This document shows positions 2,005-15,559 of a stretch of DNA of 24,500 nt, in pieces; position 1 is the stretch's first letter, and each line of letters starts with the position of its first letter. The DNA is taken from IMG/VR virus record IMGVR_UViG_3300027712_000143, positions 1 to 24,500 of that record; one strand, given 5' to 3'. A program made the translations under genes and the position numbers. The stretch is from a virus. A model generated the notes under the pieces. It worked only from the letters and a program-made list of their open reading frames with translations, did no database searches and was not told where the DNA came from.

Positions 2005-2290
2005 TATTGGTGATGATGTATATATTAAACAAGGATGGGTGCAAGGCTCCCGTCAATGCACATTTAACTCTGATGAAATGGAACGCTATGTTAATGATGG
2101 AAAAATGTATACTATTACAGACAGTTCTAATTTAGATGACGGAACAATCTATCAACTTGATAATCGCTTCTGGTGGTATCCTGAATGCTTTACAGGTGAC
2201 CAACTTGACACAACCCATCCTAACTGGCTAGTCATTCGCAAAGTAAAAAAATTATCTCAACGCAGAAAGGACCTAGGCTATGCGTTTTAA
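1994..2290 (+). CDS. Small protein, second of two tandem paralogues
   Basis: 98 residues. It starts at the ATG formed within the last codons of its upstream paralogue and ends the same way, with its GYAF-stop codons containing the ATG of the ATP-grasp gene. The N-terminus MHFNIGDDVYIKQGW and C-terminus VIRKVKKLSQRRKDLGYAF match the upstream protein. It is tryptophan-rich in the middle (FWWYPECF). No known family recognised. The purine-rich stretch AAAGGA before its own end serves as the ribosome-binding site for the next gene. Function unknown; the conserved ends suggest that both copies are kept for the same partner. Confidence 0.7.
   Translation: MHFNIGDDVYIKQGWVQGSRQCTFNSDEMERYVNDGKMYTITDSSNLDDGTIYQLDNRFWWYPECFTGDQLDTTHPNWLVIRKVKKLSQRRKDLGYAF
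2276..2290 (+). repeat. Gene-junction repeat, copy 2
   Basis: GGCTATGCGTTTTAA, the same overlapping stop/start junction as at 1990-2004 with one base changed. Here it joins the second paralogue to the ATP-grasp gene. Confidence 0.6.
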
Positions 2291-3071
2291 AGTCTTTCCA
2301 TATAAACTAGGCTCAGCCTCTGGCAAAGCCCTAGCTAATGCTCTACATGTTAGACGTGTTCGTCCTACATATGATGCTAGACGTCGTGATGTTATTATTA
2401 ACTGGGGTAACTCTAGACCGTCTGCTATCTTGCATGCGGAGCATGACCTCAATAAACATAGTGCCATTGCATTAGCTTGTAACAAACTTAAAACGTTTAA
2501 AACATTAAAAGCTGCAGGGTTTCAACACTTACCTTTATGGTGTACAACTCGTTATGAAGCTGACCAACTATTGTATACAAGTTCTAATGGTGGTGAACGT
2601 GAATCTGCAATTTATTGTCGCACAAGCTTGACAGGTCACTCAGGAAGTGGTATCATTATAGCTAAGGGCTCGTATGATTTAGTAGATGCACCGCTATATA
2701 CTGTAGCTACTAAACACAAGTATGAGTTTCGAGTTCATGTATTTAAAGGGAGTGTTATAGATGTTCAACAGAAAAAGAAACGACTGGACTACCAAGGCCC
2801 TAGCACTGGGATACGTAATTTCTCTAATGGCTTTATTTATGCTAGGGCAGATGTTCATATACCAGAGCTTATCAAATCCGCTTCTATTGATGCTGTTAAT
2901 CATCTGGGACTTGATTTTGGGGCTGTTGATATTGGGTATCGGGAGCGAGATAATCGAGCATTTGTTTTCGAAGTCAACACCGCACCAGGACTAGTAGGAA
3001 CTACTCTTGAACTATATGCACAGACCTTCACTAACTATCTAGGAGAACTTAATGCGTTGCGTGGCATGTAA
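2280..3071 (+). CDS. ATP-grasp ligase (RimK-like)
   Basis: 263 residues. ATP-grasp marks in order: NWGNSRP at 41-47, KTFKTLKAAG at 71-80 (lysine of the ATP site), Arg114 and the flexible GHSGSG loop at 119-124, KYEFRVHVFKG at 147-157, QQKKK, GLDFGAVDIGY at 210-220, and FVFEVNTAPGL at 228-238 with the ExN metal ligands E231 and N233. This family activates a carboxylate as acyl phosphate and joins it to an amine or thiol; RimK-like members add amino acids to peptides. Together with the amidoligase and the amidotransferase it makes a three-enzyme amide-bond cluster of the type reported in phages by comparative genomics (Iyer and colleagues, 2009). The substrate is unknown; peptide tagging or cell-wall modification are possibilities. 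Confidence 0.87.
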   Translation: MRFKVFPYKLGSASGKALANALHVRRVRPTYDARRRDVIINWGNSRPSAILHAEHDLNKHSAIALACNKLKTFKTLKAAGFQHLPLWCTTRYEADQLLYTSSNGGERESAIYCRTSLTGHSGSGIIIAKGSYDLVDAPLYTVATKHKYEFRVHVFKGSVIDVQQKKKRLDYQGPSTGIRNFSNGFIYARADVHIPELIKSASIDAVNHLGLDFGAVDIGYRERDNRAFVFEVNTAPGLVGTTLELYAQTFTNYLGELNALRGM

Positions 3072-3290: not shown

Positions 3291-3989
3291 ATGTCTAGTT
3301 TAGTTAAGTCTACAAGGTGCCCTCGCTGTGCTAGTAAAGGAGGGGATAAGTCTGGTAACAATCTAGCTATCTACTCTGATGGGCATGAGTGGTGCTATGC
3401 TTGTGGCTTTTATAAACCAGCTAACATCGTAGACAAATACATAGACAGAAAAAATACACCTATTAGAACTGACAGGTTCAACCCTAGTAATGTGTTTGAT
3501 GTACGTGGTATCAAATGGCTTAAACAATATGGTTTATCTAATCAAGAGATACAAGATAACTTCTTCTGGGATGATACAGGCTATTGTGTATTTAATGGTG
3601 TGATGTTTCATAACGGTAGAAACTTTAATGGTGTAGGTCCTAAGTATAAGACCAAAGGTTCTATTAAAGGCAATGAAGTTATATTTAGGAGCTCGTCAGA
3701 GCGACTACTATCATCATGTGTTATTGTAGAAGATGCTATCAGTGCTATAAAAGTTTCACGTGTATGCGACGCTGTCGCTATTCACAATGCTGTAATACCC
3801 CTAGAACTTCTAATAAAGCTATCTAGACTCTACAAAAATCTTTTTATATGGCTTGATAAGGATAAAAGCAAAGAGATGCTTGGAGAAGCTAATAAAGCAA
3901 GCCCATACTTTGACTCTGTTAGAGTGGTGTTTAGTGACCTAGACCCTAAATGCTATAATGAAGTTGACATAAAGGAAAAACTATGCTAG
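3291..3989 (+). CDS. DNA primase, T7 gp4-like N-terminal half as a separate protein
   Basis: 232 residues. An N-terminal zinc-binding domain has C10, C13, C35 and C38 (CPRC...CYAC). The middle matches the primase RNA-polymerase region (GVMFHNGRNFNGVGPKYKTKG). The Toprim domain shows VIVEDAISA (E147) and IWLDKDKS (D189, D191), the metal ligands for primer synthesis. In phage T7 the primase and helicase are one protein; here the primase ends seven bases into the helicase gene (ATGCTAG), so the two are translationally coupled but separate. It should make RNA primers for lagging-strand synthesis at the fork. Confidence 0.88.
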   Translation: MSSLVKSTRCPRCASKGGDKSGNNLAIYSDGHEWCYACGFYKPANIVDKYIDRKNTPIRTDRFNPSNVFDVRGIKWLKQYGLSNQEIQDNFFWDDTGYCVFNGVMFHNGRNFNGVGPKYKTKGSIKGNEVIFRSSSERLLSSCVIVEDAISAIKVSRVCDAVAIHNAVIPLELLIKLSRLYKNLFIWLDKDKSKEMLGEANKASPYFDSVRVVFSDLDPKCYNEVDIKEKLC

Positions 3990-5203
3990 AATTTATATTA
4001 TTATATTATTTATTAGATAGAAATATATATAATAAATATTATAAGTATACTAATATAACTAATATTACTCTTACTAAGTTATATGATTGTATAAAAGTAT
4101 TAATGGATTCATATGACGAAACAAAGTTTACTCCACAAGATTTAGAAATATGTTTGTTTACACAATATCCGTTCTTAAAAGGTTCCGAGAAGGAACAGTA
4201 TAAAGTTATCTTCGAACGATTCAGTAATGTGTCTGTAGAAGGTAAGGATGTAGAACCTCTATTACGTAAACAACGTGAGATGGCTCAAGCACGTAAACTA
4301 GCAGAACTTGCTTTAGAAGTATCTGAAGGTCGTAAAGACTTCTCTGAGGTCATGGACCATGTTAGTGATATTGACTTCGAACAACCTATTGAGGAAGAGA
4401 TAGACTTTGTATCTGATGACCTTGAAGAGTTATATAAAGAACAAATTGCTACTCCTGGCTTACGCTGGCGTCTCAATTGCCTCAACCGCAGTTTAGGTAG
4501 TCTACGACGTGGTGACTTTGGTTTCATCTTTGCTAGACCTGAGACAGGCAAGACTACCTTCCTAGCTTCAGAAGTCACATTCATGGCTACTCAAACAGAA
4601 AATCCAATACTGTGGTTTAATAACGAAGAACAGGGACAAAAGGTTATGCTTAGATGTATACAAGCATCGTTAGGTCTTGACCAAACACAACTATACTCTG
4701 ACTTAACAGGTAACAAACAACGGTTCTGGGAACGTAGTAAACGTAATATAAAACTTATAGACAATGCTTCTATACACAAACATGATGTAGAACGTATCTG
4801 TAAGCAGATGAAACCATCTCTCATTATCTTTGACCAGATGGATAAAGTAAAAGGGTTTGACGGAGACCGTAACGACTTAGCACTTGGAGCGTGCTATCAA
4901 TGGGCTCGTGAGTTAGCTAAGACCTATGCTCCTGTAATTGCTGTCAGCCAAGCCGATGGGCAAGGTGAGGGCGTTAAATGGTTACACATGGGGCACGTAG
5001 CTAATGCTAAGACATCTAAACAAGCAGAAGCTGACTGGATTCTAGGTCTTGGTAAAAGTAATGATGACGGTATGAATTACATGCGTTATCTTAACATCAG
5101 TAAAAACAAATTACAGGGCGATGCTGATACGCTACCAGCGGAGAGGCATGGACAATTCCAATGTATTATTAGACCAGAGATAGGACGTTATGGTGATACT
5201 TAA
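3983..5203 (+). CDS. Replicative DNA helicase, T7 gp4 C-terminal / DnaB-like
   Basis: 406 residues; start ATG overlaps the primase stop, with AAAGGA upstream. The RecA-like ATPase shows Walker A ARPETGKT at 184-191 (the first Gly is Ala), NNEEQG (E216) as likely catalytic glutamate, Walker B LIIFDQMDK (D284) and VSQADG (Q323), the sensor/DNA-loop region of hexameric helicases. Residues 1-40 (EFILLYYLLDRNIYNKYYKY...) are coded by extremely AT-rich DNA and are rich in Ile, Tyr and Asn, unlike the rest. Residues 85-155 are charged and helical, a probable linker that promotes hexamer assembly or primase contact. It unwinds DNA ahead of the split polymerase. Confidence 0.88.
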   Translation: MLEFILLYYLLDRNIYNKYYKYTNITNITLTKLYDCIKVLMDSYDETKFTPQDLEICLFTQYPFLKGSEKEQYKVIFERFSNVSVEGKDVEPLLRKQREMAQARKLAELALEVSEGRKDFSEVMDHVSDIDFEQPIEEEIDFVSDDLEELYKEQIATPGLRWRLNCLNRSLGSLRRGDFGFIFARPETGKTTFLASEVTFMATQTENPILWFNNEEQGQKVMLRCIQASLGLDQTQLYSDLTGNKQRFWERSKRNIKLIDNASIHKHDVERICKQMKPSLIIFDQMDKVKGFDGDRNDLALGACYQWARELAKTYAPVIAVSQADGQGEGVKWLHMGHVANAKTSKQAEADWILGLGKSNDDGMNYMRYLNISKNKLQGDADTLPAERHGQFQCIIRPEIGRYGDT

Positions 5204-5303
5204 TTATATTTTATGTTATACTAGCAGTTTCTTGTTAGGTTTAGGGTGTGGGTGTTTATTATTTTGGTTAGAGTATAGGAGTAGATATGGTAGCACGGAA
5301 TGA
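5190..5303 (+). CDS. Small single-pass membrane protein (37 aa)
   Basis: An ATG within the last codons of the helicase opens a 37-residue frame (MVILNYILCY...) with a hydrophobic core (SSFLLGLGCGCLLFWLEY) and a basic end, enough for one membrane span. It overlaps the helicase by 14 bases and the next gene by 17, filling what would otherwise be a gap. AGGA lies 5 bases upstream of the start. Packing and hydrophobicity support it; no family is recognised, so it stays tentative. Confidence 0.42.
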   Translation: MVILNYILCYTSSFLLGLGCGCLLFWLEYRSRYGSTE

Positions 5304-5511
5304 CATTACAGGAGATAAGATTCAGTCAAAGGACAACAGTAAAGCTTACTCTGATAACTATGATAAAATCTTTAGTAAAAATAAATTAAAGTTTACTGAA
5401 CAAGAGTTAATGAACATGGAAGTTATACAAGATATGATTGACAATCCTAAAAAGAAATATGTAGCACCAGAACCTCTTAACGAATACCCAGACAACTCAA
5501 AGGATGCATAA
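5287..5511 (+). CDS. Small conserved phage protein of unknown function
   Basis: 74 residues, ATG at 5287 behind AGGAG. The N-terminal part ITGDKIQSKDNSKAYSDNYDKIF resembles a short charged motif I associate with many phage early proteins. The rest is helical, ending in a proline-rich tail (VAPEPLNEYPDN). Lies between helicase and polymerase and shares a TAATG stop/start with the next gene, so a replication accessory role is plausible but not shown. Confidence 0.7.
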   Translation: MVARNDITGDKIQSKDNSKAYSDNYDKIFSKNKLKFTEQELMNMEVIQDMIDNPKKKYVAPEPLNEYPDNSKDA

Positions 5512-5654
5512 TGGATGACGCATTAGAAATTTTAAATGATATACAAGCTATCTTAGATGACTTAGACTCATTTGATTTAGAATTTAGACTACGTAACTAT
5601 GTAGATTATAAACGACATGAGTTTGAACCTGCTAAAGGAGATTGTGTTGGATGA
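5511..5654 (+). CDS. Small acidic protein (47 aa)
   Basis: An ATG inside the preceding TAATG junction opens a 47-residue frame starting MDDALEILNDIQAILDDLDS and ending at a TGA at 5652-5654. It is acidic and strongly helical, so coiled-coil pairing is possible. Its last codons contain the ribosome-binding site (AAAGGAG, 5634-5640) and TTG start of the polymerase. Both ends being coupled to neighbours is the main evidence. Function unknown. Confidence 0.6.
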   Translation: MDDALEILNDIQAILDDLDSFDLEFRLRNYVDYKRHEFEPAKGDCVG

Positions 5655-6819
5655 ACTTATCATCGACGTTGAAACAACTATCTTTCAAAAAGGAGACCCG
5701 TTCAGTGGTAAAAACACTTTGCAGTATGTGGGAGTTCTTGATTCAAGAAATGCTACCAGCCTTTATGATATTGAATATAATGGGAGTCCTTATCGTAATA
5801 AACTTACTAGCTTGGATGTGGCTTGTAAAAACGTTCTTCTTGTAGGGTTTAACATTAAGTTTGACTTACACTGGCTACGTCGTTATGGTATTGACTTTAG
5901 CTCTTGTAAAGTATGGGACTGTCAGCTTGTACACTTTATACTAACCAACCAACAGTTTCCATACCCTAGCCTCAATGCAGTTGCTATGCACTATGGTCTA
6001 GAACAAAAGCTAGACGTTGTAGCTACAGAGTATTGGGATAACGGTATAGATACTCCTGACGTACCACAAGATGTGTTAGAAGCATATTTAGAACAAGACT
6101 TGCGTCTTACACAACAAGTATATCATAAGCAGAAGGAAGCTGTTGCTGCAGCTCCTGCTGCCCTACAAAACCTTATAGCGTTACACAACATGGACCTTAT
6201 GGTTCTAGAGGAGATAGAAGCTAATGGAATTAAGTTTGATGAAAGCGAGTGTCTTGTCCTTGCTATGGAACTTGAAAGTCAAATCAAAACAATTGATGAA
6301 GACCTCCTTAATTATGTTAATATTGACGGTTTCAACTTTAATTCTGGGGACCACTTATCTAGTCTGTTGTATGGGGGAGTTCTTAATTTCCCTAGGAAAG
6401 AAGTTATCGGAGTATACAAAGGCGGTGCTAGAAAAGGTGAGGAAAAACTAGGTTGGATAGACTACTATCATACATTCCCTCAACTTGTACAGCCACTAAA
6501 AGGTAGTGAGTTAAAGAAAGAAGGCTTCTATGCTACTAATGAACAAACACTTAAATCTCTTAAACCTAGTAAAAGTGCTAAACACCTTATAGAAATGCTA
6601 CTAGAACGTGCTGAATTGGAAAAACGTAGGGGTACATACTACCAAGGTTTACCAAACCTACGTGAAGAACATGACTGGGAAGTAAATACATTACATGGTC
6701 AACTAAACCAATGTGTAGCAAGAACAGGTAGACTATCTAGTTCACGTCCTAATATGCAAAACTTTGACGGGCAAATTAAAAACTTATTCTATACGAGGTA
6801 CTATGATGGGTTACTATAA
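5647..6819 (+). CDS. DNA polymerase family A, N-terminal part (3'-5' exonuclease plus thumb)
   Basis: 390 residues from TTG at 5647, chosen because AAAGGAG ends 6 bases before it; an in-frame ATG at 5617 lies upstream of that site and is less likely. Exonuclease motifs are intact: Exo I LIIDVETT (D7, E9), Exo II VGFNIKFD (N69, D73) and Exo III YLEQD (Y147, D151). The polymerase part follows and contains RTGRLSSSRPNMQNF (about 359-373), conserved just before the palm. The frame stops after NLFYTRYYDGLL, immediately before catalytic motif A, which is carried by the next gene. The two should assemble into one replicative polymerase with proofreading. No DnaJ-like insertion was seen between the exonuclease and polymerase regions. 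Confidence 0.85.
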   Translation: MDELIIDVETTIFQKGDPFSGKNTLQYVGVLDSRNATSLYDIEYNGSPYRNKLTSLDVACKNVLLVGFNIKFDLHWLRRYGIDFSSCKVWDCQLVHFILTNQQFPYPSLNAVAMHYGLEQKLDVVATEYWDNGIDTPDVPQDVLEAYLEQDLRLTQQVYHKQKEAVAAAPAALQNLIALHNMDLMVLEEIEANGIKFDESECLVLAMELESQIKTIDEDLLNYVNIDGFNFNSGDHLSSLLYGGVLNFPRKEVIGVYKGGARKGEEKLGWIDYYHTFPQLVQPLKGSELKKEGFYATNEQTLKSLKPSKSAKHLIEMLLERAELEKRRGTYYQGLPNLREEHDWEVNTLHGQLNQCVARTGRLSSSRPNMQNFDGQIKNLFYTRYYDGLL

Positions 6820-6845
6820 AAACTTAGATATTGAAAGGCAAGAAA

Positions 6846-7568
6846 ATGCTGATACAAGGCGATGCAAATGCACTGGAGTGGAGGGCAGCAGCCTTCCTAA
6901 GCCAGGACATGACAGCACACAAGGAGATTTGGGCAGAAGTAGACCAACATACGGACAATCAACTTCGCTTAGGTTTGCCTTCACGTTTAATAGCAAAAAC
7001 TTTTGTGTTCCGTCTGATTTATGGGGGCTCCGCTTACTCGTATGCCAACGACCCAGACTTTGTATCCGTGAGCCGTTCTGAAAAGTATTGGCAAAACATC
7101 ATTGACCAGTTCTATGAAAAGTATAGTGGTTTACGTAAATGGCATACAAATCTAATGCAAGAAGCTACTACAAAAAGCTGTATAACGTTACCAACAGGAA
7201 GAGTATACTATTATGAGCCAAAACAACAACGAGGAGAAATGGTATGGCCTAGAACAACTATTCTTAATTACCCAGTGCAAGGCTTGGGAGCAGACATCAT
7301 GGCTATTGCCAGGGTTGTATTGCATAATCGTCTAAAGAAATTAAATATACCAGAAGTAAAACTTGTTAACACTGTACACGATTCTATTATTCTAGATGCT
7401 CCTGATGAGCATACAGATATGCTATCAAATCTTATTCTAGATGTATTTGAAGCAGTACCTAAGAACTTTGAAAAACTATTCGGAGTACCATTTAACCTAC
7501 CTATGAAAGCCGAAGTGGAGTTCGGTAAAGATTGGAAAAATATGCAGAAATATGTTGCAACACCTTAA
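6846..7568 (+). CDS. DNA polymerase family A, C-terminal part (palm and fingers)
   Basis: 240 residues from ATG 6846 with AAAGG 7 bases upstream; an in-frame TTG at 6831 lacks a ribosome-binding site. It opens with motif A, MLIQGDANALEWR (catalytic D6). The O-helix motif B follows: SRLIAKTFVFRLIYGG with R47, K51, F55, Y59. F55 corresponds to Phe762 of E. coli Pol I, the type that discriminates against dideoxynucleotides. QGLGADIMAIA and motif C NTVHDSI (H178, D179) follow. All catalytic residues are present, so this is a working half rather than debris. Compared with a continuous family A polymerase, about 35 extra bases holding a stop, a ribosome-binding site and a start separate the halves. 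Confidence 0.85.
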   Translation: MLIQGDANALEWRAAAFLSQDMTAHKEIWAEVDQHTDNQLRLGLPSRLIAKTFVFRLIYGGSAYSYANDPDFVSVSRSEKYWQNIIDQFYEKYSGLRKWHTNLMQEATTKSCITLPTGRVYYYEPKQQRGEMVWPRTTILNYPVQGLGADIMAIARVVLHNRLKKLNIPEVKLVNTVHDSIILDAPDEHTDMLSNLILDVFEAVPKNFEKLFGVPFNLPMKAEVEFGKDWKNMQKYVATP

Positions 7569-7583
7569 TATTAATGGTATAAT
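7555..7583 (+). promoter_or_regulatory. Sigma70-type promoter before the SSB gene
   Basis: TTGCAA (7555-7560), a 17-base spacer and a perfect TATAAT (7578-7583), in the last codons of the polymerase and the gap before the SSB gene. It would give extra SSB and 5' nuclease transcription by host RNA polymerase. Position and match support it; no transcript data. Confidence 0.6.
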
Positions 7584-7610
7584 ATATATACACACTGAGA
7601 AAGGAAACAC

Positions 7611-8156
7611 ATGATTATTACTATTGTAAACGTATCATCTCCAGAATCAAAAGGTACATGGCAGTCTTTAGAAGTTATTTATAAAGACGAGATGGGTCGT
7701 ACAAACAACCGCAACATTGTATCGTTTGGTAAAACTGCTAAAACCTTTGTAGACATTCAAGAGTATGCTAATGGTGACGTTGTAGAAGTTACAACAGAAC
7801 AAACTACAGGTAAAGATGGTAAACCATACAACAACTGGATTGCTGTAGGTGCAGTTGGTACAGTACCTAAATCTTCAGCACCAGCTGCTAAGAGTTCTCC
7901 TACAGCGACAGCAGCTCCTAAAGCTGCGGGAGGTGGTGGTAACTGGGAAACACCTGAAGAACGTGCTAAGCGTCAAGTGTTTATTATTCGTCAGTCTTCT
8001 TTGTCTACTGCTGTTGCTACTCTAGCTATTGGTGGTAAACCTACACCTACAGGTAAAGCTGTTATTGCTTTAGCTAAAGAGTACGAAGCATATGTATTTG
8101 GTTTAGATACTGACGTAGCAAACTTTGATGACTTTGACGACGACATTCCACTATAA
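7611..8156 (+). CDS. Single-stranded DNA-binding protein
   Basis: 181 residues; AAAGGA is 6 bases before the ATG, under its own promoter. Residues 1-85 form an OB-like stretch (ITIVNVSSPESKGTWQSLEV...NIVSFG...VVEVTTEQ...NNWIAVG). An Ala/Ser/Pro/Gly linker follows at about 88-111. The protein ends in the acidic tail DFDDDIPL, the usual SSB tip that binds replication partners. An extra helical region lies between linker and tail (ERAKRQVFIIRQSSLSTAV), seen in phage SSBs. It would coat the displaced strand and stimulate polymerase and helicase. Stop and next start overlap as TAATG. Confidence 0.8.
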   Translation: MIITIVNVSSPESKGTWQSLEVIYKDEMGRTNNRNIVSFGKTAKTFVDIQEYANGDVVEVTTEQTTGKDGKPYNNWIAVGAVGTVPKSSAPAAKSSPTATAAPKAAGGGGNWETPEERAKRQVFIIRQSSLSTAVATLAIGGKPTPTGKAVIALAKEYEAYVFGLDTDVANFDDFDDDIPL

Positions 8157-8851
8157 TGTTAGCCTTACTTGATGGAGATATATTCTGTTATCGAGTAGGG
8201 TTCTCTACTGAAGAAGAAGAAGTTGGTATAGCTAAGTGGCGTGTAGATGAGATGATACAAGATTGTCTAAACGTCACAGAAGCTACATCACATAAAGTCT
8301 ACTTAACAGGTAAAGATAACTTTCGATATACTATTAATAAAACATATAAAGCTAATAGGTCTGACAAACCTAAACCAAAACATCTACAAGATTTACGTAA
8401 CCATCTAGTATCTAAGTGGTCTGCAGAAATTGTAAATGGTATGGAAGCTGATGACGCTATGGCAATCAATCAAACAGACAGTTCTATAATCTGTACAATT
8501 GATAAAGACTTATTACAAGTGCCTGGTAAACATTATAACTTTGTAAAGAAAGAGTTTCAAACTATTACTCCTTGGCAAGGTTTAGTTAAGTTTTATACTC
8601 AGTTTCTTGTTGGTGATAAAGCTGATAACATTATAGGTATAGATGGTATTGGTCCTGTAAAGGCTGAGTCTTACCTTAAAGGTTGTAAGTTTGAGTTTGA
8701 GTTGTTTGATAGAGTTAAGAAGATGTATAACGACGACGAACGTATGCTTATGAATGGTAGATGTTTGTACATGAAACGTACACTAGAAGACGATTGGATT
8801 GACCACTACAATGAACTCAAAAAAGAACTGGACGGAAGGAAGGCTTCGTAG
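8156..8851 (+). CDS. 5'-3' exonuclease (T7 gp6-like, FEN/5' nuclease superfamily)
   Basis: 231 residues. Acidic metal-binding clusters: LLDGD (D6, D8), MEADDA (E97, D99, D100), TIDKDLLQ (D116, D118) and GDKADN (D154, D157). The helix-hairpin-helix GIDGIGPVKA at 161-170 binds duplex DNA. These fit the 5' nuclease family, which removes RNA primers and degrades host DNA to supply nucleotides. The arrangement next to SSB and an endonuclease resembles T7-like phages. The gene starts in the SSB stop codon, and the HNH gene starts inside it. Confidence 0.86.
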   Translation: MLALLDGDIFCYRVGFSTEEEEVGIAKWRVDEMIQDCLNVTEATSHKVYLTGKDNFRYTINKTYKANRSDKPKPKHLQDLRNHLVSKWSAEIVNGMEADDAMAINQTDSSIICTIDKDLLQVPGKHYNFVKKEFQTITPWQGLVKFYTQFLVGDKADNIIGIDGIGPVKAESYLKGCKFEFELFDRVKKMYNDDERMLMNGRCLYMKRTLEDDWIDHYNELKKELDGRKAS

Positions 8852-9191
8852 TTTTATTACATCTACTATACGAGGGGGGTTCCGAAGGTACCCTCCTAAG
8901 TATGAGGTGTTAAAAGAAGCTTTCTGGGGTAAAAAGGTAAACAGTAAGACAGGTAGGATGAGTGCTCACTATACATGTAACTTATGTAAACATGAGTTTC
9001 CTACCAAGGAAGTGCAGGTAGACCACATAGAACCTGTAGTAGACCCTAAGATAGGTTTTGTATCTTGGGATAGCTTTATAGCTAGACTCTTCTGTGATAA
9101 AGAGAATCTACAAGTATTATGTAAACCATGTCATTTAACTAAAACAGCTAATGAAAAGAAAGAGAGAAAGAATGCGTCTACACAATATTAA
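8811..9191 (+). CDS. HNH endonuclease
   Basis: 126 residues from ATG 8811 (41-base overlap with the exonuclease; no good ribosome-binding site, so coupling is likely). A zinc-bound HNH core is visible: YTCNLC (C56, C59), VQVDHIEPVV (D71, H72), LFCDKENLQVLCKPCH (C104, C107, H108) and KT. The N-terminus is basic (RRYPPK). HNH proteins at this place in replication modules may cut host DNA or resolve branched phage DNA, as endonuclease I does in T7; a homing role is also possible, although it is not inserted in another gene. Class firm, role inferred. Confidence 0.82.
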   Translation: MNSKKNWTEGRLRSFITSTIRGGFRRYPPKYEVLKEAFWGKKVNSKTGRMSAHYTCNLCKHEFPTKEVQVDHIEPVVDPKIGFVSWDSFIARLFCDKENLQVLCKPCHLTKTANEKKERKNASTQY

Positions 9192-9375
9192 GATTGATGA
9201 AGGTGGTACACACGACTTTGATATTAGTATGACTTCAGATGAGGTACAATTTTTAGTTAACCTTGCTTTAGACTATCTAATTGATAAAGAATATATTGAA
9301 CTTAACAAGACACAATCAGAGTATGACATTGACTTACTCAACAGTCTAGATAAAGAGGACATGTTTAAAGCATGA
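9172..9375 (+). CDS. Small acidic protein of unknown function
   Basis: 67 residues from ATG 9172, preceded by a purine-rich stretch (AGAGAGAAAG); an in-frame ATG at 9151 would add seven very basic residues and is less likely. The sequence MRLHNIKIDEGG...ISMTSDEVQFLVNLALDYLID is probably mixed alpha/beta and acidic. No family recognised. It overlaps the HNH gene and the following exonuclease gene (ATGA-type overlap), which supports translation. Confidence 0.6.
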   Translation: MRLHNIKIDEGGTHDFDISMTSDEVQFLVNLALDYLIDKEYIELNKTQSEYDIDLLNSLDKEDMFKA

Positions 9376-10115
9376 AAATACTTTTATTAGATATTGAAAC
9401 AGCACCTAACCTAGCTCACGTATGGGGTTTGTGGCAACAGAACGTTGCTATCAATCAAATCATGGAGAGTGGTTATACATTATGTTGGGCTGCTAAATGG
9501 TTAGGAGAGGAGAAAGTTTACTTCTCTTCTAAACAAGACCACACCGATATAGAAATGCTTGCTGGTATACATGAATTATTAGAACAAGCTGATGCTGTTA
9601 TATCTTATAATGGTGTTAAGTTTGATATCCCTACTCTCAACAGAGAGTTTGTTGTACACAACTTTGCACCACCTAGTCCTTATAGACAAATAGATTTACT
9701 ACAAGTTGTTAAGAAACAGTTTCGCTTTCCATCTAACAAGCTAGACTATGTAACACAAGCTCTAGGTGTTGGTAAGAAAGTAAAACACATTGGACATGAG
9801 TTGTGGGTTAAGTGTATACAAAAGGATGAAGAAGCCTGGGCTATGATGAAAGAGTATAATGTTAATGACGTAGTCATTCTAGAACAAGTATACAATAGAC
9901 TCTTGCCTTGGATTAAGAACCATGTAAACGCTGGTCTCTATCAAGACAATAAAGAAGTATGTCCTAATTGTGGTGGTACACATTTACAGAAACGTGGTTT
10001 CTCTTACACACATACTAACAAGTATCAACGTATGCGTTGTAATGGTTGTGGTAATTGGTTCCGTTCAACTAAAGCAGAGTCTACACCAGGCCGCAGATAT
10101 GTGAACATAGCATGA
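9372..10115 (+). CDS. DnaQ/PolB-like 3'-5' exonuclease with C-terminal zinc ribbon
   Basis: 247 residues. RNase H-like exonuclease motifs: LLLDIETAP (D7, E9), ISYNGVKFDIP (N80, D85) and YNVNDVVIL (Y162, D166). A zinc ribbon follows: CPNC (197/200) and CNGC (223/226), with aromatic and basic residues between (KRGFSYTHTNKYQRMR), like transposase-type ribbons that touch nucleic acid. Because the split polymerase has its own proofreading domain, this is a second 3'-5' exonuclease and more likely acts in repair, recombination or host DNA breakdown. Fold well supported; substrate unknown. Confidence 0.8.
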   Translation: MKILLLDIETAPNLAHVWGLWQQNVAINQIMESGYTLCWAAKWLGEEKVYFSSKQDHTDIEMLAGIHELLEQADAVISYNGVKFDIPTLNREFVVHNFAPPSPYRQIDLLQVVKKQFRFPSNKLDYVTQALGVGKKVKHIGHELWVKCIQKDEEAWAMMKEYNVNDVVILEQVYNRLLPWIKNHVNAGLYQDNKEVCPNCGGTHLQKRGFSYTHTNKYQRMRCNGCGNWFRSTKAESTPGRRYVNIA

Positions 10116-10168
10116 TGGATTTTATTATAATAGTATTATTATTATGTTTTCTGGCGGAGAGGGTGTAG
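10112..10168 (+). CDS. Possible 18-residue hydrophobic microprotein
   Basis: ATG at 10112 overlaps the exonuclease stop as ATGA and opens MMDFIIIVLLLCFLAERV, one short hydrophobic helix, ending three bases before the next gene. The GGAGAGGG that serves the next gene lies inside it. It could simply be a coupling leader. Weak evidence, no ribosome-binding site of its own. Confidence 0.25.
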   Translation: MMDFIIIVLLLCFLAERV

Positions 10169-10171
10169 TTC

Positions 10172-10345
10172 ATGGCATTAACACTTGAAGAACTTAAAGA
10201 AAGGATGGCAGAACGTATGGATGAACAATCTATTTTAGAAATATTAGCTATTGACTCTTATCAATTAGTAGAAGCTTTTTCAGATACTATTGAAGAGATG
10301 TACGATAAAATTTCACCACAAATGGAGGATGACTTCTTTGATTAA
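10172..10345 (+). CDS. Small helical phage protein (57 aa)
   Basis: Starts MALTLEELKERMAERMDEQS, then ILEILAIDSYQLVEAFSDTIEE, and ends MEDDFFD. It is an acidic, fully helical protein of a type I recall as common in T7-like phages near late-early genes, with no known function. GGAGAGGG lies about 10 bases before the ATG. It overlaps the inner spanin start. Confidence 0.65.
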   Translation: MALTLEELKERMAERMDEQSILEILAIDSYQLVEAFSDTIEEMYDKISPQMEDDFFD

Positions 10346-10823
10346 TCTGGACTTTATAAAATTAAATGCGTTACCTATTGTTGCAGTCGCTGCTTTTGCT
10401 GGTGGTTTATATGTTAGTCATCTATACCATACAGCTATAGAAGTTCAACAAACTAAGGTGTTGTTACAACAAGTAGAGAAACAAAAAGAAATAGACAGTA
10501 ATACTATTGTAACACTACAAACTAACTTAGACTCTTTACAAAAGAGCTACATTACTCTAGGAGAAAAGATTCGTGAAACAAAACTTACTACTACTCCTTG
10601 TACCGTTACTACTGATGGTATCAAGTTGTGGAATGAATCAAACATCTTTAAGGCAAGTTTGCCCACAGATACCAAAACCGTTATTGAAACCTCCAATGCC
10701 TCCAGTGGAATTAACATTGAAGAACTCTTCCAAAACAAATTAGCTAATGATGTTATTTGTAATGGTATGAGAGCACAACTAGAATCAATTATTAAATGGA
10801 ATGAAGACACTTATGGCAACTGA
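10338..10823 (+). CDS. Inner spanin (Rz-like)
   Basis: 161 residues from TTG 10338, which sits 9 bases after GGAGG; an in-frame ATG at 10329 directly touches that GGAGG and is the alternative start. One N-terminal membrane helix (LNALPIVAVAAFAGGLYVSHLY) is followed by a long coiled-coil periplasmic region (IEVQQTKVLLQQVEKQKEID...) and the short Cys-containing stretch PCTVTTDGIKLWNES typical of Rz proteins. Inner spanins pair with an outer-membrane lipoprotein and fuse the two membranes at the end of lysis, which implies a Gram-negative host. A lipoprotein gene is nested inside this gene in another frame. Its position on the plus arm, away from the endolysin, is unusual. Confidence 0.75.
   Translation: MINLDFIKLNALPIVAVAAFAGGLYVSHLYHTAIEVQQTKVLLQQVEKQKEIDSNTIVTLQTNLDSLQKSYITLGEKIRETKLTTTPCTVTTDGIKLWNESNIFKASLPTDTKTVIETSNASSGINIEELFQNKLANDVICNGMRAQLESIIKWNEDTYGN
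10573..10743 (+). CDS. Outer spanin lipoprotein (Rz1-like) nested inside the inner spanin gene
   Basis: A 56-residue frame lies wholly within the inner spanin gene in the +1 frame, from GTG 10573 with AGGAG 9 bases upstream. It reads MKQNLLLLLVPLLLMVSSC: a basic residue, a hydrophobic stretch and the lipobox VSSC, so signal peptidase II cleavage before Cys is expected. The mature part is short and proline-rich (PQIPKPLLKPPMPPVEL), the hallmark of Rz1 proteins. An embedded Rz/Rz1 arrangement is known from lambda. Lipobox, proline-rich tail, ribosome-binding site and host gene all agree. Confidence 0.8.
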   Translation: MKQNLLLLLVPLLLMVSSCGMNQTSLRQVCPQIPKPLLKPPMPPVELTLKNSSKTN

Positions 10824-12696
10824 GTTAAAAGATTATAATCGTTATATCCATGCAAGCCGTTATGCTCGCTGGATTGAAGATGAAAACCGTAGAGAAACCT
10901 GGGAAGAAACTGTAGACCGTTACATCTCTTTTTGGGTAGAACGTTTTGGTGATGTATACCCAGCAGAAGATGTACGTAAGGCTATTCTTAATATGGATGT
11001 TATGCCTTCTATGCGTACACTAATGACAGCTGGTAAAGCTTTATCTAAAGATGAATTAGCAGGTTATAACTGTTCATACATTGCTATTGATAATCCTAGA
11101 GCTTTTGATGAAATCTTATATGTACTTATGGTAGGTACAGGTGTAGGGTTTTCTGTGGAGCGTCAGTTCATTACTAAACTACCTACCATTGCAGAGGAGT
11201 TCCATGACACCGAAACAACAATTACAGTTAAAGATTCAAGAATTGGATGGGCAGCAGCTTACCGAGAACTTATATCTCTCCTCTATAGCGGAGTGGTTCC
11301 AAAGTACGACGTCAGCAAGTTACGACCAGCGGGTGCTAGGCTCAAAACTTTTGGTGGACGTAGCTCAGGCCCACAGCCGCTTGTCGACTTATTTGAGTTC
11401 ACTATTAATAAATTTAGAAACGCAGCAGGACGTAAACTAAACAGTTTGGAGGTCCATGATGTTGTTTGTAAAGTTGCTGATATTGTTGTGGTTGGTGGTG
11501 TGCGACGTTCTGCTCTTATTTCTCTTAGCAATCTTACTGATGAGCGTTTACGTATTGCTAAATCGGGAGCATGGTGGGAACAAGACGGACAACGAGGGTT
11601 AGCTAATAACTCAGTAGCATACACAGAGAAACCTGATATGGGTATCTTTATGAAAGAATGGGAAGCACTATATGAATCTAAGTCAGGAGAACGTGGAGTC
11701 TTTAACCGAGTATCAGCTACAAACAAAGCAGCTAGTACAGGACGTAGAGACACAGTTGGATTTGACTATGGAACAAATCCATGTGGTGAAATCATTCTTA
11801 GGTCTGCAGGACTATGTAACTTGTCAGAGGTTATTGTGCGAGCTAACGATACCGTTGATACACTTAAGGACAAAGTTAGAGTTGCTACAATCATTGGAAC
11901 ATTCCAGTCTACGCTTACTAACTTCAGGTATGTTAGACCTGTATGGAAAAACAATGCTGAGGAGGAACGACTTCTAGGTGTATCACTAACTGGTATTATG
12001 GATAATAAATATCTATCAGACCATTCTAATAAAGAGTTATCAAGTTCATTAGAGGAGCTAAAACATTATGCAGTTGTCACTAATAAAAAGTGGGCTGACA
12101 AACTTGGGATTAACCCTTCTGTGGCTATTACTACTATTAAACCAAGTGGCACAGTCTCCCAGTTGGTGGATAGCAGTAGTGGGATTCATCCTAGGTACAG
12201 TCAGTACTATATTAGAACTGTACGAGCAGATGCAAAAGACCCGCTTGCAGCCTTCCTCGAAAGTCAGGGAGTACCTTGCGAACCAGATGTTACTAAACCA
12301 GATAGCGTTAGAGTCTTTAGCTTCCCGCAACAAGCACCGCAAGGGGCGGTCTTAAGAGAGGATATGACAGCGATAGACCAGTTAGAACATTACCTATTGT
12401 TTAATAAACATTGGGCTGAACATAACTGTTCTATTACTGTATATGTAAGAGAGCATGAGTGGTTAGAAGTTGGTGCTTGGGTGTATAAGAACTTTAATGA
12501 AATTGGTGGTGTAAGTTTCTTACCATACTCAGACCATAGCTATCGTCAAGCTCCTTATCAACCCTGTAGTAAAGAAGTATATGATGAGGCAGTATCTAAG
12601 TTCCCAGAAATTAACTGGGGTAATTTTTTAGAAACAGAGGACACCTTAACAAGTTATAAAGAATTAGCTTGCGTTTCTGGTGTATGTGAGGTATAA
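10801..12696 (+). CDS. nrdJ: Adenosylcobalamin-dependent (class II) ribonucleotide reductase, monomeric RTPR type
   Basis: 631 residues; ATG 10813 (MATELKDYN) is an alternative start. The redox and radical residues match the Lactobacillus leichmannii enzyme in order and spacing: C91 in YNCSY, radical-site C328 with E330 in NPCGEI, C339 in GLCNLSEV (11 after C328, as C408/C419), and the C-terminal pair C624/C629 (CVSGVC, as C731/C736). The TIKPSGTVSQL motif of the 10-stranded barrel is present. It reduces ribonucleotides to deoxyribonucleotides for phage DNA synthesis with no separate radical subunit and no oxygen need, but requires cobalamin from the host. It is about 100 residues shorter than the Lactobacillus protein. 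Stop and next start overlap as TAATG. Confidence 0.9.
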   Translation: MKTLMATELKDYNRYIHASRYARWIEDENRRETWEETVDRYISFWVERFGDVYPAEDVRKAILNMDVMPSMRTLMTAGKALSKDELAGYNCSYIAIDNPRAFDEILYVLMVGTGVGFSVERQFITKLPTIAEEFHDTETTITVKDSRIGWAAAYRELISLLYSGVVPKYDVSKLRPAGARLKTFGGRSSGPQPLVDLFEFTINKFRNAAGRKLNSLEVHDVVCKVADIVVVGGVRRSALISLSNLTDERLRIAKSGAWWEQDGQRGLANNSVAYTEKPDMGIFMKEWEALYESKSGERGVFNRVSATNKAASTGRRDTVGFDYGTNPCGEIILRSAGLCNLSEVIVRANDTVDTLKDKVRVATIIGTFQSTLTNFRYVRPVWKNNAEEERLLGVSLTGIMDNKYLSDHSNKELSSSLEELKHYAVVTNKKWADKLGINPSVAITTIKPSGTVSQLVDSSSGIHPRYSQYYIRTVRADAKDPLAAFLESQGVPCEPDVTKPDSVRVFSFPQQAPQGAVLREDMTAIDQLEHYLLFNKHWAEHNCSITVYVREHEWLEVGAWVYKNFNEIGGVSFLPYSDHSYRQAPYQPCSKEVYDEAVSKFPEINWGNFLETEDTLTSYKELACVSGVCEV

Positions 12697-13056: not shown

Positions 13057-13084
13057 AGAGCCCTGTAATTGCTTACAGAGCTCT
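13057..13084 (-). terminator. Rho-independent terminator for pqqA and minus-arm transcripts
   Basis: Read on the minus strand: AGAGCTCTGTAA, GNRA-type loop GCAA, TTACAGGGCTCT, then TTTTGAT. The 12 pairs are continuous with one U-G wobble; on the plus strand the same position would be a C-A mismatch, which favours function on the minus strand. The U-tract is short. Confidence 0.6.
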
Positions 13085-13108: not shown

Positions 13109-13182
13109 ACTCATTCTAGCTAATTTACGGGTGGCCAGCCAGCCTTTTCTCCTTAGATTAGTTAGAGTGGGTCTTTTTTTTT
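13109..13182 (+). terminator. Strong rho-independent terminator ending the plus arm
   Basis: Arms ACTCATTCTAGCTAATTT (13109-13126) and AGATTAGTTAGAGTGGGT (13155-13172) pair over all 18 positions, counting G-U pairs, followed by a C and nine T. The 28-base loop (GGGTGGCCAGCCAGCC, then TTTTCTCCTT) is unusually long. The T-run touches the stop codon of pqqA on the other strand. Confidence 0.75.
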
Positions 13183-13252
13183 ACTTATTCATAACGTACA
13201 TTGTTACTTCAAAGCCAAAACGCATTTCAGTAGCAGCTGGTTTAGTCCACAT
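13181..13252 (-). CDS. pqqA: PqqA, precursor peptide of pyrroloquinoline quinone
   Basis: A 23-residue gene with AGGAGA 6 bases before its ATG. It starts MWTKPA, has the core RFGFEVTMY and ends VMNK. Glu15 and Tyr19 are spaced ExxxY, the pair cross-linked to build PQQ. From memory, Klebsiella PqqA is also 23 residues, starts MWKKPAF and carries GLEVTLY with the same E15/Y19, and Acinetobacter PqqA has WTKPA and GFEVTMY. In bacteria PqqA is bound by PqqD and modified by the radical SAM enzyme PqqE. No pqqB-E genes are visible here, so the peptide would feed, or compete within, the host's own pathway. PQQ is the cofactor of methanol and other dehydrogenases. It has its own promoter and terminator. 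Identity is strong from sequence; the effect on the host is inference. Confidence 0.88.
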
Positions 13253-13272
13253 GATGTATCTCCTATAGCTCA

Positions 13273-13303
13273 GTACAATATTATACTGTACATATATTAT
13301 AAC
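13273..13303 (-). repeat. Direct and inverted repeats in the pqqA promoter
   Basis: On the plus strand, GTACAATATTATAC (13273-13286) and GTACATATATTATAAC (13288-13303) are near copies, each holding a minus-strand TATAAT. GTACA (13273-13277) and TGTAC (13287-13291) also form an inverted repeat around the proximal one. This may be an operator. Confidence 0.45.
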
Positions 13304-13324
13304 ACAATGTAACTAAATTGTAAT
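13296..13324 (-). promoter_or_regulatory. Promoter of pqqA
   Basis: On the minus strand: ATTACA (13319-13324), a 17-base spacer and a perfect TATAAT (13296-13301), leading to pqqA about 45 bases on. A second TATAAT (13280-13285) lies closer to the gene with a poor -35. Sigma70-type; no transcript data. Confidence 0.55.
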
Positions 13325-13343: not shown

Positions 13344-13435
13344 GTAGGTGCAAATTCGATAGCTATTACATGTAACGCAGAAAGCCGAAAAACTCGTTAC
13401 TTGCTATATCCTCTGTTGTCGGCTTAACCACCTAC
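13344..13435 (-). ncRNA. Candidate structured RNA with pseudoknot, upstream of pqqA
   Basis: Four helices fit within 92 bases. P1: GTAGGTG (13344-13350) with CACCTAC (13429-13435). P2: ATAGC (13359-13363) with GCTAT (13403-13407). P3: GTAACG (13372-13377) with CGTTAC (13395-13400). The P3 loop carries AAGCCGA (13382-13388), complementary over 7 bases to TCGGCTT (13419-13425) in the P1-P2 joint, making a pseudoknot. The minus strand is preferred because the plus strand has just passed a terminator, while minus-arm transcription from the endolysin runs into it and on to pqqA. P1 overlaps the endolysin stop. No Rfam family recognised. Confidence 0.5.
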
Positions 13436-13872
13436 AAAGTTTTACCTGTTAGAAAGTATTCCCTTTCATTCTGTCTACGTCTAAACAAACCTTCACTTCT
13501 TTTACCACCTGCATTACACCATTTTAGAAACTCGTTAGATGCTTCACCATACAGTTGCTCATTAAGTTTTCTTAATAGAGTAGATGTAGCAAAAGCATGA
13601 GCTCCTACGTTGTATGTAAAAGATACAAGAGCATCAAATTGGTTTTGTGATAATGCTACCTCTACTGCAGAGTTAATAGCTGTAACAGCCCACTGTACAT
13701 CTTTCTTTAACAGAGCAGTAGCTTCCATAGAACCTATAGTACCAAACACTTCACCTTGTACAATCTTATGTCCAAACCCTATAGTAGCAAAACCTGCTAT
13801 GTCTTTATAAGGTACTGCACTGTACCCTTCAAACTTCTTTATAAGTTCTAAACCTTCTTTAGATATATTCAT
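13432..13872 (-). CDS. Endolysin, T4-type lysozyme (glycoside hydrolase family 24)
   Basis: 146 residues. The N-terminus MNISKEGLELIKKFEGYSA carries catalytic E15, followed by D24 and T30 with the family spacing E-8-D-5-T, then TIGFGH. The C-terminal QNQFDALVSFTYNVG and FLKWCNAGGKRSEGLFRRRQNE are typical of phage lysozymes. It cuts the glycan strands of peptidoglycan. No signal-anchor helix is present, so it needs a holin to reach the wall. Two holin candidates lie at the far right end of the same strand. It shares a TAATG junction with the gene upstream of it. Confidence 0.9.
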   Translation of the reverse strand: MNISKEGLELIKKFEGYSAVPYKDIAGFATIGFGHKIVQGEVFGTIGSMEATALLKKDVQWAVTAINSAVEVALSQNQFDALVSFTYNVGAHAFATSTLLRKLNEQLYGEASNEFLKWCNAGGKRSEGLFRRRQNEREYFLTGKTL

Positions 13873-14237
13873 TATGTAGCCTGTGTTTGTGCTGTTAAAA
13901 TACCATTAGTAAATGTCATACTACCTTGTGTACCACCTGTAGTAAGAGCAGCAGTTGTAATAGTAACAGATATACCTGTAGATAAATTTTGTACTGTAGC
14001 ATATTCATTAACAGTAAGATGATATCTATTTAGACTATCTCCACCTTGAATGTTATTAAGAGTGTTATGGTCTCTGGTTACTATGTTATCTATATTACTG
14101 TTAGAGAAGTCTAAACTATTAAAACTAATACCAGAACCATTGTTTTGAAACTTAGAGTACAAAGCAAAGAACCATTCTCTCCACTCAAATGTATTGCCTA
14201 CAGGTGTCTGTGGTATTGGTGGTAATGTTAATGCCAT
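13872..14237 (-). CDS. Small probable virion protein
   Basis: 121 residues, start behind GAGGAAG. The N-terminus (MALTLPPIPQTPVGNTFEWREWFFALYSKF) is proline- and aromatic-rich. The C-terminal half (ISVTITTAALTTGGTQGSMTFTNGIL) is Thr/Gly-rich beta structure, as often seen in minor tail or head-decoration proteins. No family recognised. It lies between the endolysin and the PurD-like gene, coupled to both by TAATG overlaps. Confidence 0.6.
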   Translation of the reverse strand: MALTLPPIPQTPVGNTFEWREWFFALYSKFQNNGSGISFNSLDFSNSNIDNIVTRDHNTLNNIQGGDSLNRYHLTVNEYATVQNLSTGISVTITTAALTTGGTQGSMTFTNGILTAQTQAT

Positions 14238-15559
14238 TAATCTTCCTCACTATACTTAAAGTCTGTAGCATAACCTAGCTTGTGTAGCTTAGGTAATTCT
14301 TTTTCTAAACGTTCACCAATGTCATCACGTACAATAATGGAGTTAGGTATCTCAATAGAGTCCATTACCTTGTACGCTTTCTTTGCAGCTTCCTTAACAT
14401 TAGTTGCGGTTCCAGTAGTAACAAGAACGTAATCGCCAGCAGTAACGTACATCTCTCTTTCAACAATAGCACCATCTTCAAATATAGGGGCCTTCCCTAG
14501 TTTAACTTCACACAAGTGTACATCATCGGCTACCTTTTCATATCCATATACAGGGAACCCACTAGGGTCTCTACCAGTAGACTTAGTAAAAGGAAAGTCT
14601 GGAATAGCAGCAAGTACACCTACCGCATGTTTATAACTAGCACGTAATGTATCTACACCTTCAATAAGGTCTACCATCCACTCTACAGGGTCTCCCACAT
14701 GTAGACTAGCTTGTATATTAAATAAAGGCCATCCAGGTCTTGTAGTCCATTCTAGGGGACGTGGTTTACCACTACTATCATCAATAATAAAAGCAAGGTC
14801 TACATAACCAACATAGTTAATATACGATAGATAGTCTTCTAGTTTACCTAGTGTATCATCAAACAATTTAGATTGTTTAACATACTTAAGCACAGTACCC
14901 ATCTCACCAGTATTAACTCCGTAGTTAGATGGCATAAGTTTCTTAAACTCAAAGTTTTCACACTTAAGTTTATTAAAACCATGTGGTCCAAACCACCCAC
15001 CAACAGCTATTTCAATACCACTAGAGAACTCTTGTAGAATAAATGGTTGCTTGTTCTTACCTTTACTCTTCCAACGCTCTAACATAAATATCATGTCAGC
15101 AGGGTTTTTAGAAACATAGCTTAGTGCTTTGTCAACGTCTCCAGACGGCTTAGAGACATAACGTACTGGGTGTGCTTTAACATGCTCAATAGCAGAGTTG
15201 TAGTCATTAAAACTTGTAGAAGGAATAACATCTAAACCTGCTTTCTCTAAAATATTCATACCAAAACTACGGTCTAGTTCTAAATCAGAACCAGTGTTAT
15301 TAGCACCAATAATAGGGTACCCTTCTTTATGGTACTTCTCTAACTTGTGCATTTCATATGCATTGTCAGACAATACAATAATATCAGCCCACTTCATGTG
15401 CTGTTCCCAGTTAGCTACTCTAGGTATAAAACCCTTACCAATCTCAGAGACGTGTCCACGTACTTCACGTTGCCACTGTTTTACATAATGACCTGCTAAC
15501 ATACACTTCATAGCAAAGTCAGTAAAGGCTCCTGCTGGGTCTATTAAAAGTACGTTCAT
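14237..15559 (-). CDS. PurD-like ATP-grasp ligase (phosphoribosylamine-glycine ligase fold)
   Basis: 440 residues, close to the usual PurD length. The N-terminal nucleotide-binding start is MNVLLIDPAG. The ATP-grasp core has RYVSKPSGD, FILQEFSSGIEIAVGGWF, NYGVNTGEMGTV (PurD has a similar GPNTGGMG), YVGYVDLAFII and PLEWTTRPGWP. The PurD C-terminal domain follows (VLAAIPDFPF..., YVTAGDYVLVTTGTATNVKEAAKKAYK). Oddities: the ExN metal motif of PurD is EWT here, so Asn is replaced by Thr, and the DHKR-like stretch is changed, so the substrate may not be phosphoribosylamine. It sits amid virion genes, with ATGA overlap to the large internal protein, which points to late expression. Purine supply or modification of a virion or host molecule are both possible. 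Confidence 0.75.
   Translation of the reverse strand: MNVLLIDPAGAFTDFAMKCMLAGHYVKQWQREVRGHVSEIGKGFIPRVANWEQHMKWADIIVLSDNAYEMHKLEKYHKEGYPIIGANNTGSDLELDRSFGMNILEKAGLDVIPSTSFNDYNSAIEHVKAHPVRYVSKPSGDVDKALSYVSKNPADMIFMLERWKSKGKNKQPFILQEFSSGIEIAVGGWFGPHGFNKLKCENFEFKKLMPSNYGVNTGEMGTVLKYVKQSKLFDDTLGKLEDYLSYINYVGYVDLAFIIDDSSGKPRPLEWTTRPGWPLFNIQASLHVGDPVEWMVDLIEGVDTLRASYKHAVGVLAAIPDFPFTKSTGRDPSGFPVYGYEKVADDVHLCEVKLGKAPIFEDGAIVEREMYVTAGDYVLVTTGTATNVKEAAKKAYKVMDSIEIPNSIIVRDDIGERLEKELPKLHKLGYATDFKYSEED

Follow-up and report, generated by a model that had tools for sequence, protein, structure and literature searches.

Why would a phage carry a gene of 23 codons that encodes nothing but the raw material of a host cofactor? 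The question arises from a minus-strand open reading frame in the window, the whole 24,500-base stretch of a virus record analysed here, which a sequence-only reading had taken for pqqA, the gene of the PQQ precursor peptide. The frame is indeed a phage-borne pqqA, at exactly the coordinates proposed, and its interval, stop codon included, encodes a full-length PqqA of 23 residues. Both profiles named as a check exceed their curated cut-offs over the full length: PF08042 gives 40.2 bits over all 19 positions (E 1.6e-11; cut-off 21.1 bits) and TIGR02107 gives 40.4 bits over 21/21 positions (cut-off 20 bits). PF08042 has no match in 14 control genomes. The stretch E15-V-T-M-Y19 contains the two residues, spaced E-x-x-x-Y, from which PQQ is formed.

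The peptide also points to its host. Letter for letter it equals a PqqA of Methylophilaceae, with the same leader and cross-link residues, and 26 of 130 host copies are identical to it. This identity makes it likely that PqqE, together with PqqD, cross-links the peptide and that PQQ is formed from it. In GTDB genomes the PqqA pattern falls mostly in records whose titles name Methylophilaceae or one of its genera; the remaining matches are mostly titled at a higher rank, and one is titled Rhodocyclaceae. pqqA is present in every Methylophilaceae genome searched (159/159), at between 1 and 12 copies each, in line with a 2014 study in which these bacteria multiply pqqA and keep the other pqq genes, as a rule, single (PMC4109929). 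This multiplication in the host points to substrate dosage. Unlike the host genes, the window copy stands alone in a phage genome.

That the surrounding DNA belongs to a phage, not to a host, is clear from its polymerase, helicase, lysozyme and head closure genes, and from the presence of the gene in sequenced isolates. A plus-strand replication module comprises a DnaB-like helicase, a split family A polymerase, an exonuclease and a class II ribonucleotide reductase (Pfam, PHROGs), and a minus-strand module includes the lysozyme and the head closure protein. pqqA sits where the two modules converge, downstream of the lysozyme gene (Table 1). Nine window proteins, all from the plus-strand module, match the OM43 phage MEP401 (Zobellviridae), and none of the minus-strand proteins does. 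On these protein matches, the MEP401-type replication module places the window phage near OM43 phages, and the layout fits the 'group II' phages, which combine such a module with a different morphogenesis module (PMC10580990). MEP401 has its pqqA at another place, before the minus-strand genes near the end of the record, so the gene has changed position or been acquired repeatedly. By ribonucleotide reductase the nearest relative is ct2os315, for which tblastn gives no pqqA match.

Table 1. Features of the window around pqqA
Feature	Positions	Strand	Basis and remarks
MEP401-type replication module up to class II ribonucleotide reductase	3291..12696	+	MEP401 homologues, Pfam, PHROGs
Small ORF, 61 aa	12834..13019	+	convergent with pqqA, ends plus-strand module; no PHROG
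Hairpin with T-run, likely pqqA terminator	13057..13084	-	fold -22.8 kcal/mol, z -5.0
pqqA	13181..13252	-	23 codons plus stop; PF08042 and TIGR02107 above cut-off; conserved in many phages
Shine-Dalgarno AGGAG	13260..13264	-	sequence
Candidate sigma-70-type promoter ATTACA-17-TATAAT	13296..13324	-	consensus scan, not significant alone
Phage lysozyme	13432..13872	-	PF00959 137 bits, phrog_7; upstream neighbour of pqqA, same strand

Two other features of the window deserve mention. Two ORFs, 5617-6819 and 6831-7568 (plus strand), together encode the family A DNA polymerase; as MEP401 shares this division, with a small ORF separating the parts, it looks like a trait of the lineage, not a sequencing error. 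Positions 1-801, 2280-3071 and 14237-15559 encode an amidoligase, a protein resembling S6 glutaminyl-transferase and a weak, sub-threshold match to ATP-grasp (GARS-like); together they may form a set for modifying peptides or glycans.

The expression signals claimed for the gene hold in part. The ribosome-binding site AGGAG is present, and a 12-bp hairpin with a minus-strand T-run about 100 nt downstream fits a terminator. The promoter, taken alone, is no better than shuffled sequence, as a single scan finds 6 candidates against 5.2 expected. It rests instead on the whole set: two TATAAT hexamers (13301-13296 and 13285-13280) precede the window gene, and this hexamer occurs upstream of 41 phage pqqA copies against 12.2 +/- 3.5 in shuffles, an enrichment that is lacking in host copies (1 against 7.5 expected). 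A Shine-Dalgarno-like motif stands before 121 of 126 phage copies, with 13% expected. Both neighbours lie on the opposite strand for 42 of the 128 copies; many of them must therefore be transcribed separately. Neither an RNA family nor a tRNA was found in the window.

The sequence-only reading had also asked whether other phages conserve the gene, and both related and little-related ones do. A tblastn search over 50,697 phage records finds pqqA in ten phages; MEP431-434, Venkman EXVC038S, MG-MtP1 and RSA-MfP1, all listed in the taxonomy, were not among the phages located. Nine are Methylophilales isolates (P19250A, Venkman, MEP301, MEP401, MEP402 and four Melnitz phages), and the tenth is a metagenomic podovirus. 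With two Acinetobacter-labelled matches excluded, every record with a named host and pqqA is a Methylophilales phage. The excluded matches, labelled Acinetobacter phage MD-2021a, are most likely bacterial DNA filed as phage: the record, CAKLQF020000010.1, carries a pqqA-E cluster beside polyphosphate kinase. As the first reading had foreseen, gene finders miss the gene: it is unannotated in the GenBank records of P19250A, Venkman, MEP301, MEP401 and MEP402, and in Melnitz and ctXG6705 its place is covered only by a hypothetical ORF on the wrong strand.

The isolates encode the same peptide family as the window (77-96% identity, one copy per genome), but represent other phage lineages and carry the gene at other genome positions. 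P19250A and MEP401 share no proteins, P19250A and Venkman four, Venkman and MEP401 six, and Venkman and ctXG6705 22. By this measure only Venkman and ctXG6705 are clearly akin among the phages compared; deposited taxonomy assigns MEP401 to Zobellviridae and Melnitz to Kyanoviridae. An 85-bp stretch with pqqA, 91% identical between Venkman and ctXG6705, is the sole near-identical DNA over 25 kb of Venkman, which suggests that a pqqA cassette is exchanged between phages.

Metagenomic phages extend this range considerably. A DNA pattern for GFEVTMY yields at least 120 matches in IMG/VR, and all 120 listed are true PqqA, which together with the profile scores rules out a chance open reading frame. 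One codon spelling, 16% of this first set, yields at least 120 matches in a scan of its own, again with all 120 listed being PqqA. We estimate that more than 700 IMG/VR contigs carry pqqA, provided the first 120 are representative. An Alphaproteobacteria-type pattern gives 38 matches with 3 true PqqA, which shows what chance matches look like, and an Acinetobacter PqqA query finds no further phages in the named-phage collection. These two results indicate that, in these collections, pqqA belongs mainly to Methylophilaceae phages.

Several contigs stand out within this material. The 356-kb IMG/VR contig 3300023174_000036, of jumbo-phage size, carries a pqqA for MWTKPTAQEMRFGFEITMYVMNR. Three IMG/VR contigs, phage or bacterial (L261, L270 and L283), encode Alphaproteobacteria-type PqqA such as MKWSAPIVQEVCVGMEVTSY, with no pqqB-E in the stretches fetched. 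Five loci (L013, L022, L027, L033 and L037) share a second type of phage PqqA, which may come from phages of another methylotroph or methanotroph group.

Selection on the peptide, a further point raised by the sequence-only reading, is purifying. Across 107 unique phage genes, the codons that the search left free show a pN/pS of 0.27, and Arg11, one of these, is invariant. A leader-only IMG/VR pattern that leaves codons 14-19 free, and so avoids core bias, gives at least 120 matches; Glu15 and Tyr19 are kept in all 120 listed, and GFEVTMY is exact in 113 of them. Phage pqqA is thus a homologue of a host metabolic gene under purifying selection, as is typical of an auxiliary metabolic gene (AMG). 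Ser6 occurs in 54 of 170 unique phage genes against 4 of 112 host genes (p 1e-9), a phage signature showing that the copies come partly from an old pool and are not just fresh captures.

The phages carry this gene without its partners, as had been noted for the window. None of pqqB, C, D or E occurs in 127 related pqqA-bearing phage loci, although pqqB turns up in 29 host loci by this search. Across 48 whole records, exactly one pqqA is present in each (48/48), PqqD is absent and no PqqE scores above cut-off. The window encodes no radical SAM protein, and none of these phage loci and records holds a complete PQQ operon, with pqqB, C, D and E beside pqqA.

One 72-kb IMG/VR contig (3300025120_009955) encodes a full-length XoxF-type methanol dehydrogenase at 9989-11863 of the locus, about 6 kb from pqqA. 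The enzyme is intact, with 608 bits to TIGR03075, and its best solved relative is XoxF (6oc5). It lies among genes with PHROG matches, and a 946-aa protein beside XoxF matches a PHROG named DmsA.

Phage pqqA is likely a substrate-only AMG that sustains host PQQ for XoxF. This reading builds on the identity of the peptide, its breadth, the selection on it, the absence of partner genes and the match to the host. Of the pathway, the phage encodes only PqqA, a ribosomal peptide whose Glu and Tyr would become PQQ. During infection, expression of the phage gene would yield the peptide, host PqqD/PqqE would bind and cross-link it, and host proteases, PqqB and PqqC would complete the synthesis. We infer that these phages shut off their hosts; replacing the substrate alone could then keep PQQ flowing after host transcription falls. 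The PQQ would load the methanol dehydrogenase XoxF, on which the methylotrophic Methylophilaceae host chiefly relies for energy, and so maintain energy and carbon for phage replication, presumably to the benefit of the phage. Substrate-only supply would be the cheapest route to continued PQQ and methanol oxidation once host transcription fails.

Stoichiometry makes this economy plausible. One PqqA is consumed per PQQ, and the pathway enzymes are reused, so replacing the substrate alone should suffice for PQQ flow. Because the phage peptide equals that of the host, the phage copy can change dosage and timing only. The fact that hosts already have several pqqA copies counts against a benefit. 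Results on whether extra PqqA raises PQQ are mixed. A study cited in PMC7936290 reportedly achieved a rise in Gluconobacter by overexpressing pqqA alone; in Acetobacter, pqqAB brought a gain of only 29%, compared with 8-fold for the complete operon (PMC7936290). The modest Acetobacter gain means that PqqA need not be limiting.

PQQ might instead be raised for a purpose other than XoxF, such as redox protection of the infected cell, since the uses of PQQ look alike in sequence data. We regard this as improbable. The phage set is tied to methylotrophs in which the PQQ protein XoxF is the core energy enzyme, one phage carries XoxF itself, and the Acinetobacter query added no named phage.

The sequence-only reading had left supply and interference as alternatives. 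As a decoy or competitive inhibitor, phage PqqA would occupy PqqD/PqqE and stop host PQQ synthesis, and an excess of PqqA of any kind would compete with host PqqA for PqqD. The cross-linked residues are dispensable for such a decoy, yet Glu15 and Tyr19 persist in every copy listed by a search that leaves both free; the retention of residues needed only for processing disfavours interference. A window peptide identical to host PqqA should, moreover, become PQQ, and XoxF beside pqqA on one phage contig argues for raised methanol oxidation. Supply is accordingly favoured, and interference is very unlikely.

A genetic by-product, whether host contamination, recently captured scrap or an attachment site copied from a multi-copy host gene, is hardly credible: four phage copies are DNA-identical to a copy in a host assembly and the many host copies could serve as attachment sites, but the gene has phage neighbours in the window and in isolates, pqqB-E are missing from the 127 phage loci although 29 host loci have pqqB, Phage_integrase is absent from 34 records, a pS of 0.55 is high for a site held by DNA identity, and the Ser6 signature indicates that phages have long kept the gene.

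With substrate supply as the preferred reading, a broader pattern emerges that we consider likely: several little-related Methylophilaceae phage lineages convergently carry only the substrate of the PQQ pathway, among their commonest metabolic genes and hidden by gene callers, and thereby steer methanol oxidation stoichiometrically. pqqA is probably a common way for Methylophilaceae viruses to sustain the energy supply of their hosts. The methylotrophs OM43 and Methylopumilus abound in coastal seas and lakes, with PQQ-dependent XoxF as their main entry to methanol oxidation. In OM43, no transcript is more abundant than xoxF (PMC5120137). If phages commonly supply PqqA, infected cells may go on oxidising methanol, a matter of relevance to carbon turnover in the sea and in fresh water. 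The peptide is also a clue to the host of viral contigs that lack an assignment, and it exposes genes below about 30 codons as a blind spot of viral annotation. Cultured phage-host pairs exist for Venkman, Melnitz, MEP301, MEP401, MEP402 and P19250A, making the idea testable at once.

Phage PqqA as such is already known. It was named in 2020 in one Lake Baikal phage population, VP_266, and proposed as an AMG for PQQ; Baikal phage populations carry both methanol dehydrogenase and PqqA (PMC7678222). PqqA is also listed among viral genes of reservoir sediments in a 2026 report (PMC13188868). pqqA goes unmentioned in the main texts of the Venkman, MEP401/402 and Melnitz papers; in the last of these, PQQ appears only as an additive to the medium. 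No account of the breadth of phage pqqA was found in the open-access literature. Its breadth, its convergence and its absence from the main texts of the isolate papers therefore look unreported.

The window phage and VP_266 share a PqqA in predicted Methylophilaceae phages and the same proposed role. VP_266 is T4-like and also encodes methanol dehydrogenase, whereas the window carries pqqA alone, next to a MEP401-type replication module; and where that report described one population, the present survey shows pqqA to be far more widespread. A second comparison is with the AMGs of cyanophages. Those of the psbA type are phage copies of a fast-consumed host component and keep the main energy process of the host running. 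Phage pqqA is likewise a copy of a fast-consumed host component, but its product, rather than being a protein of the energy machinery, serves a RiPP-type cofactor pathway as peptide substrate.
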